NCBI RefSeq assembly: GCF_014696385.1
Contig: NZ_JACJQB010000007.1
Coordinates: 1 to 64,000, forward strand
Direction of reading: 5' to 3'
Source of the DNA: Pseudanabaena mucicola FACHB-723
GTDB taxonomy: Bacteria; Cyanobacteriota; Cyanobacteriia; Pseudanabaenales; Pseudanabaenaceae
Length of the DNA: 64,000 nt
Position 1 is the stretch's first letter, and every line of letters begins with the position of its first letter. The position numbers and the translations under genes were made by a program. Positions 1 to 62,642 of the stretch are shown piece after piece. The notes beneath the pieces were generated by a model, which saw nothing but the letters and a program-made list of their open reading frames with translations, was not told where the DNA came from and searched no databases.

Positions 1-281
1 CATTGGTTTAGAAAGATGGTAATTTTAAGCTAAAATCACCATCTTTACAGGAATAGTGTGCCCGATTTTAGGCTGATTTCATTTCTGATTCAACACTTCT
101 GGGTCTGGATAAAATAGATAAACACATAAAATAAAAACTTAAGATACAGAAATTCTATTTCTTAAGTTTTTAAGTTTACTTATCATTACATGAGAAGTAA
201 CGTATTAAATTTATTAAAAATCTACAAAACATGGCTTTTTTACAGCAAATGATTTATGAACAAGGGGCTTAAGGCCCTTGT
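1..281. other. Gene-free left edge with three inverted repeats
   Basis: No convincing reading frame is present. The stretch holds an imperfect hairpin at 12-46 (arms AAAGATGGT / ACCATCTTT, extended inward with one mismatch), an A/T-rich hairpin at 133-171 (AAAAACTTAAG / CTTAAGTTTTT) and the left arm of the large palindrome at 241-300. The first two look like transcription terminators; the gene they would serve lies outside the window or is not visible. Confidence 0.5.
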
Positions 282-300
282 TCATAAATCATTTGCTGTA
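241..300. terminator. 26-bp perfect palindrome enclosing the end of the DUF433 gene
   Basis: Arms at 241-266 and 275-300 are exact reverse complements around an 8-nt centre. The right arm contains the last codons and the stop (284-282) of the minus-strand DUF433 gene, so the last six codons and the stop lie in the stem. It can act as a terminator, although the arm is followed by only a short U-rich stretch. Confidence 0.55.
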
Positions 301-503
301 ACTTCATAGGGAACCACTGTCAAACGGCGATCGAGATTGGCAGCAAACGCAAAACAAGCCCGCATATCTGCAAGTGTTAAATCAGGAAAATCATCCAATA
401 CCTCTTCAACACTCATTCCACCGCCAAGGTAGTCAAACACATCTGATACAGCAATGCGTGCGTTAACTATTTGATTTTGATGAAGTGGCGATCGCAATTT
501 CAC
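282..503 (-). CDS. Short DUF433-family protein
   Basis: This 73-residue protein matches the DUF433 core: a helix-turn-helix-like segment (ARIAVSDVFDYLGGGMSVEE, about residues 15-34) followed by FPDLTLADMRACFAFAA, the usual second half. DUF433 proteins often act as the antitoxin or DNA-binding partner of PIN-type toxins, but no toxin gene is adjacent. It lacks the usual N-terminal segment with the GKPxIxGTR motif, so it is short or N-terminally trimmed. The start is GTG and sits directly against the hairpin that ends apcE (504-540), with no clear ribosome binding site between them, so the start is uncertain. The 3' end lies inside a 26-bp palindrome. It may be a decaying gene; expression is unproven. 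Confidence 0.6.
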   Translation of the reverse strand: MKLRSPLHQNQIVNARIAVSDVFDYLGGGMSVEEVLDDFPDLTLADMRACFAFAANLDRRLTVVPYEVTANDL

Positions 504-27497: not shown

Positions 27498-27538
27498 CAT
27501 AAAAAAGGAGGGGTGCTTAGCACCCCTCCTTTTTTATG
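27498..27538. terminator. Bidirectional terminator between rbp and the ferredoxin gene
   Basis: Arms of 19 bp (27498-27516 and 27520-27538; core GGAGGGGTGC / GCACCCCTCC) are exact reverse complements with A and T runs outside. It can stop transcription from both convergent genes. Confidence 0.85.
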
Positions 27539-28882: not shown

Positions 28883-28925
28883 CTAATAAAAAAGGCTCTT
28901 GCTAAGCAAGAGCCTTTTTTATTAG
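28883..28925. terminator. Terminator after ssrA
   Basis: Arms with core AAAAAAGGCTCTTGCT / AGCAAGAGCCTTTTTT extend outward to CTAAT / ATTAG. It begins six bases past the tmRNA 3' end on the minus strand. Confidence 0.85.
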
Positions 28926-28930
28926 GTTAA

Positions 28931-29317
28931 TGGAATCGGGCAGAGTCGAACTGCCGTCCGCACTAGCGCCTAACCTCCCAGTCATTCACAGGTTTATCCG
29001 ATTTGATCCTCACGGAGGGAATTGCTATTTATCTCTAGCAACGAAAGATGCACTGATAAAGTCTTGAGCGCTTAGCCTATCAGAGAAAGCTAAACACAGC
29101 ATCCGTTGGGGGTTGGAGTGACGTATTTAACGGAGTCATACATCACACCTCGAAACCGAAATTTGGTTCTTAGGCAGCTACAGGAGCGGCTTTACGAGAA
29201 AAAGATACAATGTTGTTCGCATGTACTTGTTTGCGCCATTGATTTACGAGAGATAGCACGCTCTCGACCTGCATCAAGGGATAGCTTCTACTAACACGTC
29301 GAAACCCTTACGATCCC
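28931..29317 (-). ncRNA. ssrA: Transfer-messenger RNA (tmRNA)
   Basis: tmRNA rescues stalled ribosomes and tags nascent chains for proteolysis. The 5' end GGGATCG (29317) pairs with the 3' CGATTCC (28938-28932; one G-U pair) as the acceptor stem; GGCAGTTCGACTCTGCC near the 3' end is the T arm. The tag frame runs from 29220 to the stop at 29170 and encodes ANNIVSFSRKAAPVAA, which shares ANNIVSF with other cyanobacterial tags. The 3' CCA is not encoded, so it must be added. The molecule is contiguous, not permuted into two pieces. A terminator follows immediately. Confidence 0.95.
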
Positions 29318-34365: not shown

Positions 34366-35763
34366 ATGTTTTCGATCACTGCGATCGCCCATCACCTATC
34401 TGGATTGAATATCCCACAACCGCTATTGGCAACTGCTGAGTCGGAAAATGCGCCGATTATTCTTTCAGGGGTATTACTTACCCTAGTGATTATTTATCTC
34501 GCGAGCAAAGTCGGCAGTGAAATCGCCAAACGCTTGGACTTGCCCCCTGTATTGGGCGAACTAGTTGCAGGTGTGCTTGTTGGTGTATCTGCCCTGCGCT
34601 TAGTGATTTTCCCTGAAGGTGGATTTACCGCATCGGATTCTTTGATCATGTCAGGGTTGCAGTTATTAAATAACTTGTCCCCTGAGTCAGTAAATAGCAT
34701 ATTTGCTCAACAAAGCGAAGTTATCTCGGTACTCGCTGAGATAGGCGTAATTATTCTCCTGTTTGAAATTGGCTTAGAGTCAGATATTCGTCAACTCAAG
34801 GAAGTGGGTATTCAAGCTTTTGTAGTTGCTTTTATCGGGGTGACGGCTCCCTTTGCCGCAGGCACAATTGGACTGATGTACTTCTTCCATGTTGCAGCAA
34901 TTCCTGCCATTTTTGCGGGTGCTGCACTCACTGCGACTAGTATTGGCATTACTTCCAAGGTTCTTGCGGAAATTGGGCAACTAAAGTCAAAGGAAGGACA
35001 GATTATTGTTGGTGCAGCCGTAATCGATGACGTACTAGGAATTATTGTTTTGGCAGTGGTTGCTAGCTTGGCGAAAACAGGTGAAGTTGATATTACCAAC
35101 GTGGCAATTTTGCTAGTTAGTGCGATCGCATTTCTGTTTGGTTCTATTCTATTGGGTGGCATTTTCAACAAAACCTTTGTAGCAATAGTTTCTAAACTCA
35201 AAACTCGCGGCAACATTGTGATTCCTGCCTTTATCTTTGCCTTCGCAATGGCATTTATCGGCAATGCAATCCATTTAGAAGCGATCTTAGGAGCCTTTGC
35301 CGCAGGGTTAGTGCTGGATGAAACTGATGCTCGCAATGAGTTAGATGAATTAATTAAGCCGATTGCGGATTTATTAGTACCGATTTTCTTTGTAACTGTG
35401 GGTGCTAGAGCTGATCTCAGTGTGCTGAACCCAATGATTCCTGAAAATCGCAGTGGACTACTGATTGCCGTATTTCTGCTGGTAGTTGCAATTTTAGGCA
35501 AGGTGATCACGGGCTGGGTGGTCTTTGGTATACCGAATATCAACCGCTTAGCAATTGGTGTGGGCATGGTTCCCCGTGGCGAAGTCGGTCTAGTATTTGC
35601 GGGAATTGGCACTGCTAGCGGTGCGATCGATAAACCTTTAGAAGTGGCGATTATTATCATGGTGATCATGACCACGTTCCTTGCACCTCCATTTTTACGC
35701 ATTGCCTTTGGCAAAACTGATGAACCGCCAGCAAGTGGGGAATTAGCCAACACGCAAGCATAA
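34366..35763 (+). CDS. CPA2-type cation/proton antiporter
   Basis: A 465-residue membrane protein of the CPA2 (KefB/NapA/NhaS-like) group with about 12 or 13 helices. Family signs are the ELVAGVLVG segment, ILLFEIGLESD, GAALTATSIGITSKVL and the acidic ion-binding motif VIDDVLGIIVLAV; the later GAFAAGLVLDET and PIFFVTVGARADL also fit. The N-terminus has a hydrophobic segment (residues 25-45) after a possible signal. No TrkA-N domain is attached. Its position directly after sbtAB and bicA suggests sodium extrusion to support bicarbonate symport, but K+/H+ exchange cannot be excluded. The stop codon lies in a 31-bp palindrome. Confidence 0.88.
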   Translation: MFSITAIAHHLSGLNIPQPLLATAESENAPIILSGVLLTLVIIYLASKVGSEIAKRLDLPPVLGELVAGVLVGVSALRLVIFPEGGFTASDSLIMSGLQLLNNLSPESVNSIFAQQSEVISVLAEIGVIILLFEIGLESDIRQLKEVGIQAFVVAFIGVTAPFAAGTIGLMYFFHVAAIPAIFAGAALTATSIGITSKVLAEIGQLKSKEGQIIVGAAVIDDVLGIIVLAVVASLAKTGEVDITNVAILLVSAIAFLFGSILLGGIFNKTFVAIVSKLKTRGNIVIPAFIFAFAMAFIGNAIHLEAILGAFAAGLVLDETDARNELDELIKPIADLLVPIFFVTVGARADLSVLNPMIPENRSGLLIAVFLLVVAILGKVITGWVVFGIPNINRLAIGVGMVPRGEVGLVFAGIGTASGAIDKPLEVAIIIMVIMTTFLAPPFLRIAFGKTDEPPASGELANTQA

Positions 35764-35821
35764 AAAAACATAAAAAGAAAAGCGACTCATTGAGTCGCTT
35801 TTCTTTTTATGTTTTTTATGC
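35758..35821. terminator. 31-bp palindrome starting at the antiporter stop
   Basis: Arms 35758-35789 and 35791-35821 are reverse complements except for one extra A. The core is GCGACTCA / TGAGTCGC with A/T flanks. The antiporter stop TAA (35761-35763) lies inside the left arm. Confidence 0.75.
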
Positions 35822-35825
35822 TCAC

Positions 35826-35864
35826 AAAGCTAGTGCCGTCCATACATCGGACGGCACTAGCTTT
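35826..35864. terminator. Terminator of the DUF255 gene
   Basis: 16-bp perfect arms AAAGCTAGTGCCGTCC and GGACGGCACTAGCTTT around ATACATC. On the minus strand it directly follows the DUF255 stop. Confidence 0.7.
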
Positions 35865-51836: not shown

Positions 51837-52700
51837 TTAACTAAATCCTTTAAAAGCAATTATTTCTTGTGCAGGTTGACGATCGCCATTACAGCTAATT
51901 CTGCGTGGAGCGTCATAAAATTTTATCTCAAATCCTAAATTTCTATATAACTCAACAATACGAACTGTTGCCTGATTAGAGGCAATCACTGGACATTTTT
52001 GTTTAGCTAGCCACTTAGCCAGACGAACTTGATCTTGCCATTCAAATCCATTTTGAGAATACTGTCGAAACTCCACATCATATGGGGGGTCGGCATAAAT
52101 TAGATCTTTCTTTTTGATTTTTAATGATTCAAAATCTCCACAGGTAAACTGCCACGGAGACATAACAGATTGGTAAACAGAAAAATTTGGATTATAGTTA
52201 ACAGTCTTATATCTTCCAAAAGGAACGTTAAATCCTCCTTTTTGGTTAAATCTACATAGACCGTTATAACCAGTACGGTTCAGATAGTAAAAGAGTTGTG
52301 CAGCTTTATTACTATCAGCTTCACCATTTTGAATCAATCGATTAAACTCATTACGCTGTGCATAGTAAAATTCCCGATTGTACTTGGCTTCAATATCAAA
52401 ATTTAAGCCTCGTTGTAACCACTTATAGAAATTCACCACATGGGGATTGATATCATTTAGTAAAGCTTCTTCTGGCTGTAAACCTAGAGCAATTGCTAAT
52501 CCGCCACAAAATGGCTCTACCAAACGGCGATCGCTATATTTTTGCCAAGTATGCTGCAAATGGGGTACAAGCCAACGCTTACCACCAGCCCATTTTAAGG
52601 GAGGCGTAAGGCGTTCTGGCTTTGCGGTTGAGCTAGTAGTATTTGCCACTTGTTTTGCCAAGGGAGTCATGAGCAGAGACGAACATTGAGACGATGGCAT
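51837..52700 (-). CDS. Dam-family (D12 class) DNA adenine methyltransferase
   Basis: The 287-residue enzyme transfers methyl from AdoMet to adenine N6. Motif I-like LKWAGGKRWLVPHL begins at about 35, VEPFCGGLAIAL follows, YLNRTGYNGLCRFNQKGGFNVPFGRY is the Dam/D12 family signature, and DPPY (LIYADPPYDVEF) is the catalytic motif. Members include GATC methylases such as Dam and DpnM, so a GATC target is possible; the HIP1 octamer in this genome contains GATC. An N-terminal stretch of about 35 residues is Ser/Thr-rich. The REase gene follows two bases downstream. Confidence 0.9.
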   Translation of the reverse strand: MPSSQCSSLLMTPLAKQVANTTSSTAKPERLTPPLKWAGGKRWLVPHLQHTWQKYSDRRLVEPFCGGLAIALGLQPEEALLNDINPHVVNFYKWLQRGLNFDIEAKYNREFYYAQRNEFNRLIQNGEADSNKAAQLFYYLNRTGYNGLCRFNQKGGFNVPFGRYKTVNYNPNFSVYQSVMSPWQFTCGDFESLKIKKKDLIYADPPYDVEFRQYSQNGFEWQDQVRLAKWLAKQKCPVIASNQATVRIVELYRNLGFEIKFYDAPRRISCNGDRQPAQEIIAFKGFS

Positions 52701-53602: not shown

Positions 53603-54169
53603 ATGATTGCTACCACTGCACGTCGCTACAGTCTTGATGAATATCGTGCGATCGCTGAAACCTCTGAGGAAAAATGTGAATATCATGATGGAGAAATTAT
53701 TACAATGACTGGTGGAACTGCCACACATAGCCGTATTAGTCGGAATGTTGTTAATTTTTTGGATAACAATCTAGAAGATACTAACTTTGAAGCCTTCAAC
53801 AGCGACTTGCGAATATGGATTCCTAAATACCGTTGTGGAGTTTATCCAGATGCAATGGTTGTTGATAGTCAATTGCAGTTTCATGATGGGCGCGAAGATG
53901 AAATTTTAAATCCATTATTAATTATCGAAGTGCTTTCTCCATCAACTCAGAAATATGATCGAACTGATAAGTTTGAGATGTATCGATCTATTCCTAGCCT
54001 TTGTGAATATCTTTTGATTAGACAGGATAGACCATTTGTTGAGCGATACACCAAGCAATTAAATGGATGGTTATTCAGTGATTTTAATGGTTTAGAAGAT
54101 TCTATTTCGCTAGAATCTATCAAAATCGAATTAGCAATGACTAAAATTTATCGCGGAATTATATTTTAA
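53603..54169 (+). CDS. Uma2-family nuclease-like protein, second copy
   Basis: The 188-residue protein has the Uma2 pattern EEKCEYHDGEIITMTGGTATHSRISRN, YPDAMVVDSQLQF (catalytic Asp) and LLIIEVLSPSTQKYDRTDKFEMYRSI. Sequence is quite different from the copy at 50852 (TATHSRI subgroup), so the two are not a recent duplication. The gene is 14 bp upstream of the FTR1 gene on the same strand and could be read through. Function is unknown beyond the fold. Confidence 0.88.
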   Translation: MIATTARRYSLDEYRAIAETSEEKCEYHDGEIITMTGGTATHSRISRNVVNFLDNNLEDTNFEAFNSDLRIWIPKYRCGVYPDAMVVDSQLQFHDGREDEILNPLLIIEVLSPSTQKYDRTDKFEMYRSIPSLCEYLLIRQDRPFVERYTKQLNGWLFSDFNGLEDSISLESIKIELAMTKIYRGIIF

Positions 54170-54183
54170 AAGAGAACTTATTT

Positions 54184-55095
54184 ATGGATTTTAGTGCTGC
54201 ATTGCCAATTTTTGCGATTACTTTGCGGGAGGGCGTAGAAGCTGCCCTTGTGGTGGGAATTGTGATGGCGTATCTCAAAAAAGCCGATCGCAGTTTTTTG
54301 TATCCTTGGGTGTTTGGGGGCATTGTTACAGGGATTTTGGCAAGCGTGGCAGTGGGGATCTTGCTCAATTGGTTCTTCCAGCAAGTGGAAAACACAGAGC
54401 CAATGCAAGCCGCTTTTTATGGGCAGTTGTGGCAAGGAGTTTTGGGCATTACCGCCATTGCCATGTTGAGTTGGATGTTGGTCTGGATGACAGAAAATGC
54501 CAAAGCGCTGAAGGGAGAAATCGAAGGGCAAATTGGTAATGCGATCGCAAATTCTCAGAATGCAGGTTGGGCAGTATTTACACTGATCTTGATTGCAGTA
54601 TTACGAGAGGGTTTTGAAGTTGTAATTTTTATCTCCGCGAAACTGCAAACAGGGATGATCCCGATTATAGGAGCGATTTCAGGTTTAGTCAGTGCCGTTG
54701 CGATCGGAATTGCCCTCTTTCAATTTGGGATTCGCATTAATCTCAAAGTATTCTTTCAAGCCATGGGCATCTTTTTATTACTAATCGTTGCAGGGCTAGT
54801 CATTAGTGCAATCGGGCATCTGGATCGCGCTATAACTGCCTATGCCGAACTCTCTCAAGCTTCTATTTGCCTTCCATCTGGTGACCAATTACATTCTTGC
54901 CTATTGGGTAATCTCGTTTGGGATGTACATGATCGCTTCCCAGACGATCAATTTCCTGCAATCTTGCTCAAGGCGATGTTTGGTTTTCGGGATCGGCTCT
55001 TTCTTGGACAAGCAATCGCCTATTTCGCATTTCTAACTTCTGCGGGTTTTCTGTATTTTCAGAGCCTTATCAAAAAGACAACTCCTACAGCATAA
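54184..55095 (+). CDS. FTR1-family iron permease
   Basis: The 303-residue membrane protein has seven predicted helices and the paired iron-translocation motifs REGVE (LREGVEAALVVGIV, about residue 13) and REGFE (LREGFEVVIFI, about residue 140), as in fungal Ftr1 and bacterial EfeU. EfeO and EfeB partner genes are not adjacent. It ends in TTPTA-stop inside a 25-bp perfect palindrome that also supplies the last codons of the convergent CHAD gene. Confidence 0.92.
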   Translation: MDFSAALPIFAITLREGVEAALVVGIVMAYLKKADRSFLYPWVFGGIVTGILASVAVGILLNWFFQQVENTEPMQAAFYGQLWQGVLGITAIAMLSWMLVWMTENAKALKGEIEGQIGNAIANSQNAGWAVFTLILIAVLREGFEVVIFISAKLQTGMIPIIGAISGLVSAVAIGIALFQFGIRINLKVFFQAMGIFLLLIVAGLVISAIGHLDRAITAYAELSQASICLPSGDQLHSCLLGNLVWDVHDRFPDDQFPAILLKAMFGFRDRLFLGQAIAYFAFLTSAGFLYFQSLIKKTTPTA

Positions 55096-55130
55096 GCGAA
55101 GCAAAGCTTCGCTTATGCTGTAGGAGTTGT
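55078..55130. terminator. 25-bp perfect palindrome joining the FTR1 and CHAD gene ends
   Basis: Arms 55078-55102 and 55106-55130 are exact reverse complements around AAA. Read from either strand the arm encodes ACA-ACT-CCT-ACA-GCA-TAA, so FTR1 and CHAD proteins both end in TTPTA. No long T run follows, but the stem is strong. Confidence 0.8.
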
Positions 55131-56081
55131 TAAGAGCGATCGCAGTGATTTACGAAAATCTAGGGATAGGTAATGCTCTTGGAAAGGTTGCCATTTCTGC
55201 CAAAAAATTTGCGTATCCTGTTGGATGATTTGATCGATGGTGGGTAATACCTGCGCTAAATCTACCGTGAATAATGCTCTGAGAAAATCGCTCAGGAAAG
55301 TATTGTCTTGCAATTGTCCAAGGACTTCTTGCATATTCCTAAATTCATCAATCCTTTGCTTATACTCATCTTCGTAAAAGGTGTCAAAAAACTCAGCCTG
55401 ATAGCGAACTCCTTTAATTTGCTTACGGAGATCATGTAATTCATCACCAAATCTTCTTAATTGGTAATTTAGTTCTTCAGTGTTCTCGAGCGGGATTAAT
55501 GAAAGTCTGCCTGATTGCATCGTTGTACCAACTAGCCAGCCTGAATGCAGAAAAAGCTGACAAATCAATGGAAGTAGTAAATCTGGCAGTATTTCTGAAA
55601 CTGAGACACTACCCATAGTTGTGTAGTCAGGATGGACGAGCCAATCTTGGATTAGAAGTTTGCAATTTTGATAGCGATCGCCTTTGAGAATCTGTTTTAA
55701 CTTCACAAAGCTATGGCTGCGTTGTTTGCCTAAGTGCTGCATCACCTTCTCAAACTTGGGTTGTTCTGCCTTTGTTAGTATTGACTGATAGCGCTCAGAC
55801 ATTACCTTTTGTAGCACATCAAGATCCCGCGTTTTTCCTAAGCCCTTGGCAATTTTTCCAATCGCTTCACTAATTCCATCAGGAAGAATCACAACATTAC
55901 TAAATACACGCATAGCTGTGCGTAGTCGTCGCATTCCGACTCGCATTTGGTGCAGCGCTTCAGGATCTTTATCTTTAAAAACAGCCTTTTCTTGATCAAT
56001 TACCTTTTGGAAGTTTTGGCGAATCACCTGATGGGCATAGTCGCTAAGTGCGATCGCAATTTCCAACTGATCTTCTTGCAT
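55113..56081 (-). CDS. CHAD-domain protein
   Basis: The 322-residue cytosolic protein is a single CHAD domain (about 10-290): His-rich helices with HQMRVGMRRLRTAMRVF near residue 45 and DELHDLRKQIKGVRYQAEFF near 220. CHAD domains bind polyphosphate through conserved His and basic residues and occur beside polyphosphate enzymes; no such enzyme is adjacent. The last residues TTPTA derive from the palindrome shared with FTR1 and may not be original to the family. Confidence 0.9.
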   Translation of the reverse strand: MQEDQLEIAIALSDYAHQVIRQNFQKVIDQEKAVFKDKDPEALHQMRVGMRRLRTAMRVFSNVVILPDGISEAIGKIAKGLGKTRDLDVLQKVMSERYQSILTKAEQPKFEKVMQHLGKQRSHSFVKLKQILKGDRYQNCKLLIQDWLVHPDYTTMGSVSVSEILPDLLLPLICQLFLHSGWLVGTTMQSGRLSLIPLENTEELNYQLRRFGDELHDLRKQIKGVRYQAEFFDTFYEDEYKQRIDEFRNMQEVLGQLQDNTFLSDFLRALFTVDLAQVLPTIDQIIQQDTQIFWQKWQPFQEHYLSLDFRKSLRSLLTTPTA

Positions 56082-61867: not shown

Positions 61868-62602
61868 ATGACTTATTCCCTGCGGATCGTGGATATGAAT
61901 GAGAACGATCGCCCTCGCGAGCGATTGCTAAGTCAAGGCGTGCGAAGTCTATCGAATGCAGAACTAATTGCAATTTTGCTCGGCACAGGACAAGGTGCAG
62001 GAAAGCTCTCAGCAGTGGGGTTAGGGCAGCTAATTTTACAAACAATTGGCAAAGATCGAACTGGTGATCCCGTGGCATCTTTGCAAAATATCTCTGCACA
62101 GGAGCTGATGCAAATTGAGGGAGTTGGACCTGCTAAAGCCACAGCAATCTTGGCGGCGATCGAGTTAGGTAAACGGGCGCTATACGCCAAGCCACCAGAT
62201 TTGACAGAAGTAACCGATCCATCAATTGCTGCTACTGCTCTTAGTCAAGACTTGATGTGGCAACCACAGGAGCGGTTAGCAGTGGTAATGCTTGATAATA
62301 AGAATCGGATTATCGGTCAACGGATTATCACAATTGGAACGGCGACAGAGACCCTTGCCCATCCTCGCGATATCTTTCGGGAAGTTTTAAAAAGTGGTGC
62401 TGTGCGTCTCATCGTCGCGCACAACCATCCATCGGGAAATACGAACCCTAGCCCTGAAGACATTACATTGACTCGCCAGTTACTAGAAGCCGCCAGAATG
62501 TTAAATCTTCCCCTCCTTGATCATTTAATTTTAGGGAATGGAACGTTTTCTAGTCTTCGCGAAACTTCAACATTATGGCAAGAAATTCCTCAAGCAGAAT
62601 AA
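61868..62602 (+). CDS. radC: RadC-family JAMM protein
   Basis: The 244-residue protein has a helix-hairpin-helix region (about 20-110: [42 protein letters not shown]) and a MPN/JAMM metalloenzyme-like domain with HNHPSG...D ([18 protein letters not shown]). Annotated historically as DNA repair protein RadC, but the actual function is unsettled. The full JAMM metal set (Glu, HxH, Asp) appears kept. The stop codon is the first three bases of the palindrome at 62600-62642, which also ends the convergent Spy-like gene. Confidence 0.93.
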
Positions 62603-62642
62603 AAGTTGAAGCCGTCCGCGTAGCGGACGGCTTCAACTTTTA
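62600..62642. terminator. 20-bp perfect palindrome ending radC and the Spy-like gene
   Basis: Arms 62600-62619 and 62623-62642 are exact reverse complements (core GAAGCCGTCCGC / GCGGACGGCTTC). The first three bases are the radC stop TAA and the last three are the stop of the minus-strand gene. Confidence 0.8.

Follow-up and report, generated by a model that had tools for sequence, protein, structure and literature searches.

The accessible parts of several papers describe the systems that come closest to the one reported here. Template switching between the arms of inverted repeats has been described in Saccharomyces cerevisiae (Abraham and Hazkani-Covo 2021, PMC8604942), and template switching has also been proposed to create and to maintain RNA hairpins (Monttinen and Loytynoja 2022, PMC8794818). 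Perfect inverted repeats in coding sequence are reported for the mitochondria of Nematomorpha (PMC6649704), and an excess of palindromes for many prokaryotes (PMC4060949); the HIP1 repeat (PMC4390886) is unrelated to gene-end palindromes. Pseudanabaena is mentioned neither in the accessible portion of a survey of bacterial inverted repeats (PMC10434271) nor in that of a study of cyanobacterial termination (PMC13289151). Among the open-access matches listed, as far as their accessible text goes, none describes gene-end palindromes of the present kind or convergent genes that share C-terminal codons.

Here, we analyze a palindrome that joins the ends of two convergent genes, for an FTR1-family iron permease and a CHAD-domain protein, in a 64,000-nucleotide stretch of Pseudanabaena mucicola FACHB-723 (the whole stretch is named the window). 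An earlier note on this DNA had proposed that the end of one gene was copied in inverted form onto the other. This mechanism appears right in kind and is partly supported by our analysis, the main result of which is the occurrence, across the sampled members of the genus, of perfect gene-end palindromes that bear marks of inverted copying.

The palindrome shared by the FTR1 and CHAD gene ends

The 25-bp perfect palindrome at 55078-55130, which the earlier note had described as common to two convergent gene ends, was confirmed in its coordinates, its arms and the endings that it gives to both genes. Briefly, the two 25-nt arms are 100% complementary around the AAA spacer, and the two stops lie on opposite sides of the palindrome centre, each 9 nt away from it. 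Both genes end in ACA ACT CCT ACA GCA TAA, and the identity of the arms spans synonymous positions, both stops and 7 non-coding bases per side. Within the window, the arm sequence (up to 3 mismatches) is found at these two arms only, with 0 occurrences expected from 100 shuffles. The 19-nt apex occurs once in the genome when up to 1 mismatch is allowed, and a 601-bp query around the palindrome matches only itself and its own reverse. The 26 genus genomes searched yielded no complete second copy, the best foreign match covering 25 of 65 bases, and a megablast search of the palindrome against E. coli was without a match. Since first-order Markov copies of the 133-kb contig yielded 0 perfect hairpins with an arm of at least 15 in 3 runs, and copies of four other Pseudanabaena samples likewise yielded 0, the palindrome is not a product of chance. 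With DNA energies, the single strand is predicted to fold into the full 25-bp hairpin (z -14.9 relative to shuffles), and with RNA parameters the same stem is predicted for both transcripts. The arms are without an outer A-run; the CHAD transcript reaches a CTTTTT past the stem, the T-run of a canonical terminator being present on this strand only, and a terminator-like site is called at the hairpin on the CHAD strand and not on the FTR1 strand.

Table 1. Features of the FTR1/CHAD junction and related palindromes of the window.
Feature	Position	Strand	Details
FTR1-family iron permease gene	54184-55095	+	PF03239, E 4.3e-52; ends LIKKTTPTA-stop
CHAD-domain protein gene	55113-56081	-	PF05235, E 2.1e-49; ends SLLTTPTA-stop
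Left arm	55078-55102	+	last 5 sense codons and stop of FTR1 (55078-55095), then GCGAAGC
Loop AAA	55103-55105		3 nt (TTT on the opposite strand), in a GC-NNN-GC apex
Right arm	55106-55130	-	last 5 sense codons and stop of CHAD (55113-55130, read on -)
CTTTTT	55072-55077	-	just beyond the palindrome on the CHAD transcript; terminator-like call
Palindrome, 20-bp arms, loop GTA	62600-62642		between convergent RadC-like and LTXXQ-motif genes
Palindrome, 27-bp arms	35763-35817		begins with the final base of a Na/H exchanger gene's stop codon
Palindrome, 16-bp arms, loop 7	35826-35864		ends with the final base of a convergent DUF255 gene's stop codon
Palindrome, 20-bp arms	27498-27538		between convergent ORFs, 2 and 10 nt beyond their stops
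Palindrome, 21-bp arms	28883-28925		2 nt downstream of the tmRNA gene (28928-29317, -)

The closest named match of the FTR1 protein, at 89% identity, comes from Pseudanabaena sp. FACHB-1998. Of the 19 matches with at least 81% identity, 15 are titled Pseudanabaena, and for this reason the genus sampled here is taken to be Pseudanabaena. A plasmid search with FTR1 returned relatives below 60% identity only, and nothing on the junction. A D12-class adenine methyltransferase (51837-52700, -) and a Uma2-family putative endonuclease (53603-54169, +) are encoded upstream of FTR1.

We compared the endings with those of 25 other FTR1 proteins of the genus, one per genome (L025-L049), and of 15 other CHAD proteins (L005-L014 and L016-L020), of which two share a genome. 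L015, the twin of L014, was set aside together with L021-L023, which are fragments or weak matches. The TTPTA ending was found in 0 of the 25 FTR1 proteins and in 0 of the 15 CHAD proteins. The common C-terminus is thus due to the palindrome and not to ancestry, as the earlier note had held, and the 40 genus orthologues do not show two families that both end natively in TTPTA. Parts of the ending are present outside the window. The CHAD proteins across the genus carry SLRSLLTTP or a variant of it, Thr-Thr-Pro being native there, and Thr-Pro stands at about the same place in two (L026 and L027) of the three best-scoring FTR1 relatives, with the codons ACT CCT as in the window. In the 10 other CHAD genes with T/S/-T-P at this place, the second Thr codon is ACA, and by its sequence the extra ACA codon of the shared ending looks CHAD-like. 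The terminus GCA TAA is present in members of both families. With Thr-Pro on both sides and these mixed codon signals, no one-way donor can be named. The comparison of orthologues suggested by the earlier note thus returned Thr-Pro as native in CHAD but also in two close FTR1 proteins, and the proposed inverted copy of one gene's end gains support from such copying at other loci of the genus while losing its nameable donor. Judged from the sequences, two already similar ends may equally well have been homogenized into one palindrome.

The native Thr-Pro of CHAD and of two of the three best-scoring FTR1 relatives would also give some footing to the view that both proteins evolved the same ending independently. 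However, the identity of the DNA through synonymous positions, both stops and the 7 non-coding bases, together with the full ending in 0 of 40 orthologues, makes such a coincidence barely credible, and for the full 25-bp arm it is excluded by the DNA-level identity.

A CHAD match is present in 16 of the 26 genus genomes. In 0 of the 15 other CHAD-bearing genomes does CHAD lie beside FTR1, although contig ends could hide the adjacency in drafts; a look for the second arm in sister genomes, as the earlier note had suggested, thus meets genomes in which the junction as a whole is missing. The two matches are more than 1 million bases apart on the same contig in three genomes (G007, G015 and G022) and lie on separate contigs in the remaining CHAD-bearing genomes; in one of these, G011, 33 nt separate the CHAD gene from the end of a contig. 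The sampled genomes yielded no intermediate of the FTR1/CHAD junction. The FTR1 and CHAD ends of some sister genomes bear other palindromes of the same build, and those of others bear none.

Perfect palindromes at gene ends across Pseudanabaena

Perfect palindromes are expected to decay by point mutation, and Pseudanabaena has many perfect ones at gene ends. Counting perfect palindromes with an arm of at least 15 and a loop of at most 8, we found 260 in ten Pseudanabaena samples that total 1.033 Mb (11-58 per 100 kb) and 11 in 1.1 Mb of controls. The control counts are 4 in 400 kb from three other genera of the family, 7 in 600 kb from 15 other cyanobacteria (the G075 sample is 60% N, 24 kb of 40 kb), and 0 in 100 kb of E. 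coli K-12. An enlarged Pseudanabaena set contains 491 in 1.833 Mb, and the window's own genome 96 in 533 kb; by extrapolation, there are hundreds per Pseudanabaena genome. The samples include two pairs of related genomes (G006/G007 and G022/G015), whose counts are therefore not independent.

The quality of the assemblies bears on these numbers. When k is shorter than the palindrome, the two loop orientations are equivalent in a de Bruijn graph and arm mismatches resemble bubbles. By this general reasoning, a short-k assembler might have perfected the arms or picked the loop orientation randomly, and the window's genome is indeed a draft of 94 contigs and G006 one of 160, whereas the control genomes are all in 1-7 contigs, with no drafts represented among them. 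Such an artefact is nevertheless very unlikely to account for the palindromes: five Pseudanabaena genomes in 1-9 contigs (G007, G022, G015, G005 and G025) show 21-30 per 100 kb, as many as the window draft or more, and between G022 and G015 (1 and 8 contigs) loop flips occur in palindromes of just 33-37 nt.

The palindromes share a common build. The loop has 3 nt in 161 of the 260 palindromes and 1 nt in 54, where a 1-nt loop is a triplet with complementary ends that is read as 1. The apex is GC-NNN-GC in 177 of the 260. The central triplets of the 236 odd-length palindromes are GAA/TTC (60), AAA/TTT (54), TAA/TTA (31), GTA/TAC (27), AAT/ATT (21) and rarer ones. The average arm runs from A-rich on the outside to GC-rich at the apex. 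The heptamer GCGAAGC forms an extraordinarily stable DNA mini-hairpin. The class of stable DNA mini-hairpins is described in the accessible part of PMC10527192.

The distribution along the genomes was analyzed with ORFs called by a crude longest-ORF rule, which brings some errors into the positions relative to stops. Per kb, convergent intergenic regions contain 3.04 palindrome centres, tandem ones 1.55 and divergent ones 0.85, and ORFs contain 0.02. A centre lies within 60 nt downstream of 273 of 1491 ORF 3' ends and within 60 nt upstream of 43 of 1491 ORF 5' ends. Of 254 convergent ORF pairs that lie close together, with at most 400 nt between them, 111 contain a palindrome. Among these 254 pairs, 7 palindromes (arm of at least 12) enter both ORFs, one of which (G002, -50) looks like a miscalled ORF; sense codons are shared by FTR1/CHAD alone, and the other six share just the stop. 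FTR1/CHAD is an extreme case of a process common in Pseudanabaena. The word "unusual", which the earlier note had applied to the locus, holds for the shared sense codons but not for the palindrome, the kind being common in the genus.

The window itself contains 10 perfect hairpins (arm of at least 12, loop of at most 8), 6 of which lie within 30 nt of an ORF stop (Table 1). The outermost 3 nt at each end of the palindrome at 62600-62642 are the two stop codons of the flanking genes. Two distinct perfect palindromes adjoin each other at 35763-35864, between the convergent Na/H exchanger and DUF255 genes. The palindrome at 28883-28925 indicates that the class follows an RNA gene too; a search of the whole window with Rfam at gathering thresholds returned the tmRNA only. 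Another perfect repeat of the window (240-301) has 27-bp arms and an 8-nt loop, lies 262 nt past an ORF stop and is not of the triloop type.

Some of the palindromes are repeated: for 52 of the 260, the inner 10-nt arm is found again in another palindrome of that sample. The arm GGTAGATGTGGTGCGGGC recurs four times in 200 kb of the G007 sample (L077-L086), and its copies make up a small dispersed family in which the arms are intact. In addition, an imperfect inverted repeat of about 100 bp, with TTACAGCA...TGCTGTAA ends around a CAAGAAAATTTTTAAAAGCGTTGC core, occurs in dispersed form in the G015 sample (L107-L116 joined) at about 11655 and about 111203, that is, two copies in 200 kb, and in the G022 sample (L097-L106 joined) at about 183942. 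We therefore considered whether a dispersed REP- or MITE-like palindromic repeat was inserted at the junction and gave both genes new C-termini, a view to which the shared inner arms and the two copies of the 100-bp repeat in the G015 sample lend something. Against it, the FTR1/CHAD palindrome is single in its genome and without a full copy in the 26 genus genomes, 0 of the 15 palindromes of its contig have the inner 10-nt arm in common with any other there, and its outer arm is not foreign, since Thr-Thr-Pro is native to CHAD. Insertion of such a repeat is improbable here, and a mobile-element origin of this single-copy palindrome was rejected.

Footprints of inverted copying between related genomes

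The mismatch spectrum of the palindromes was obtained for 18-bp arms with a loop of 3. In Pseudanabaena, 163 such sites are perfect, versus 67, 73, 79 and 72 with 1, 2, 3 and 4 mismatches; the controls hold 3 perfect sites and 1, 0, 8 and 13 with 1-4 mismatches. By this spectrum, the perfect arms represent a preferred state rather than the tail of a decay curve.

The loops were compared between the genomes of each related pair. Between G006 and G007, 19 loops could be scored in flanks that are 99.3% identical; 14 are the same, 4 are reverse-complemented and 1 is otherwise different. The flips include GTT/AAC and TTT/AAA, and at the TTT/AAA locus the two arms also differ in length by 1 nt between the genomes, each arm mirroring the other, in addition to the loop flip. 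Two of the four flips are single-base and ambiguous, as a plain transversion would give the same result. At the FTR1 end of this pair (L048/L049), the loop is flipped between TTC and GAA. For the more distant pair, 19 aligned loops taken from G022 to G015 comprise 8 same, 4 flipped and 7 other, and 19 taken from G015 to G022 comprise 8 same, 5 flipped and 6 other.

The arms bear mirrored changes as well. From G022 to G015, 10 of 428 arm pairs differ by mirrored changes and 18 by solitary ones, versus about 0.4 mirrored changes expected by chance at 5.3% divergence; from G015 to G022, 12 of 441 are mirrored and 18 solitary. The near-identical pair shows 1 mirrored change in 487 arm pairs and 3 solitary ones from G006 to G007, and 1 in 485 and 4 solitary in reverse. 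At one locus the conversion of an arm can be followed in detail. G022 carries a 24-bp perfect core inside a longer imperfect repeat, and G015 has perfect arms of 50 bp there; the left flank in G015 has been changed into an exact complement of the right one, together with a loop flip, and the right flank departs from its G022 counterpart at a few bases beside the core.

Such changes reach into genes. In G006 and G007, the last 17 nt of a gene ending in VLAPLR-stop are mirrored downstream, and the orthologues in G015 and G022 end in VLAPLK-stop and VLSPLR-stop, with other palindromes. A perfect palindrome extends 11 nt into a G015 gene ending in ATPID-stop, and the G022 orthologue (96.9% identical) ends in ATPIE-stop, with no perfect hairpin of at least 10 bp at that place. 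A matched G015 orthologue was available for 39 of 59 G022 palindromes under looser and for 32 of 59 under stricter matching. A perfect hairpin with an arm of at least 10 was absent from the orthologous site in 13 of 32 cases from G022 to G015 and in 11 of 37 from G015 to G022, which indicates a fast turnover of the palindromes. Collectively, the marks of template switching found in the genus are arm homogenization (at one locus), intact inversion of the spacer, and mirrored changes above chance.

We also asked at which level, DNA or RNA, the arms are kept alike. In palindromes that lie beside a single gene end and have 1-2 mismatches, read on the sense strand, we counted 51 G-U, 47 A-C and 51 other mismatches, which is no G-U excess (p 0.76), though transcription of both strands may blunt this test. 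The orientation of the loop relative to the gene is balanced for GAA (17) and TTC (12) and for AAA (16) and TTT (16), and not for GTA (8) and TAC (2). The lack of a G-U excess and the balance of the main loops suggest homogenization at the DNA level. These results bear on an alternative in which selection on RNA acts alone, the palindromes being terminators or mRNA-stabilizing stems whose perfection is maintained through ordinary compensatory substitutions. Their position at 3' ends, their A-rich outer and GC-rich inner arms as in two-way terminators, their strong predicted RNA stems and the excess of solitary over mirrored arm changes all agree with such selection, as does the statement, in the accessible part of PMC13289151, that cyanobacteria are without Rho. 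However, zero mismatches are the commonest state among low-mismatch sites, G-U pairs are not in excess (with the reservation made above), in some cases a loop is reverse-complemented as a whole, and orientation is balanced for the two main loops. Triloops, furthermore, dominate where stable RNA tetraloops might be expected, and few such palindromes occur in the other cyanobacteria sampled. Selection on RNA alone is therefore an unlikely explanation, and selection may still decide where palindromes persist.

For the two nuclease proteins covered by the search, SbcD and the ExoVII large subunit XseA, loss was rejected as the cause, as both are present across the genus. All 38 family genomes have a match to SbcD (TIGR00619), which is above the cut-off in 37, and 26 of 26 genus genomes have one to XseA (TIGR00237). 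Of the 12 family genomes outside Pseudanabaena, 3 have xseA; the other 9, some of which are incomplete, had no match.

A candidate mechanism and its relation to known systems

We consider it probable that copying templated by the hairpin, that is, template switching, creates gene-end palindromes and makes them perfect again, and that it did so between FTR1 and CHAD. A hairpin would form at a convergent gene end, DNA synthesis or repair would switch template onto the opposite arm, and one arm would be rewritten as the exact reverse complement of the other. This would produce perfect arms, flipping loops and arms able to extend outward into coding sequence; where the arms cross both stops of a convergent pair, both genes would end in the same codons. 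For FTR1/CHAD itself, we infer template switching from the footprints found elsewhere in the genus. Once transcribed, the hairpin would probably also end or protect both mRNAs, and a putative second role of the gene-end palindromes is probably that of two-way terminators. A wider proposal, which we offer tentatively and regard as rather doubtful, is that Pseudanabaena has a strongly raised level of inverted copying at gene ends, which would write and refresh perfect GC-NNN-GC palindromes that act as two-way terminators without Rho and would rewrite C-termini, some of them shared. The raised copying would stem from an altered replication or repair activity, perhaps one coupled to transcription termination.

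The FTR1/CHAD junction shows how unrelated proteins can gain one ending without common ancestry. Pseudanabaena may serve as a natural system for measuring hairpin-templated mutation, and it is useful for asking how a Rho-less bacterium defines its transcript ends and for testing whether a neighbour rewrites the C-termini of proteins.

Among known elements, intrinsic terminators, which are often bidirectional, resemble the average palindrome in position and in its A-rich, GC-rich and T-rich layout, and the A-rich outer and GC-rich inner arms match the layout of a two-way intrinsic terminator. In contrast, perfect arms of at least 15 bp, a GC-NNN-GC apex and loop flipping are no part of the definition of an intrinsic terminator. 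Minute inversions in chloroplast DNA hairpins, reportedly described by Kelchner and Wendel in 1996, are similar in that loops flip in non-coding stem-loops of the cyanobacterial lineage, but they belong to plastids and are not known to be tied to arm conversion or to shared codons.

The yeast case, in the accessible text of PMC8604942, shares with Pseudanabaena the homogenization of arms, the intact inversion of spacers (including TTC to GAA), changed codons and recurrence in inverted repeats that are perfect. The yeast spacer inversions described there lie within single genes and have arms of 10-16 bp, whereas the arms in Pseudanabaena reach 35 bp (with one of 50) in the ten samples, are found mostly at gene ends, and in one case join two proteins. 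The RNA hairpins of PMC8794818, as far as its accessible text goes, are alike in having perfect stems from one event, stem extension and loop inversion. They concern microRNA and rRNA, and there loop inversion with compensatory changes is very rare and inverted loops typically have 4 nt; in Pseudanabaena, triloops prevail, and loop flips, at 4 of 19, are not rare. The palindromes of Nematomorpha, according to the accessible part of PMC6649704, resemble FTR1/CHAD in that both arms are coding, but those repeats are embedded within protein-coding genes, whereas the FTR1/CHAD arms are the ends of two convergent genes. In conclusion, each step of the copying is known from elsewhere, and what appears new is the density of palindromes at gene ends in one genus and the sharing of codons by two proteins in this way.
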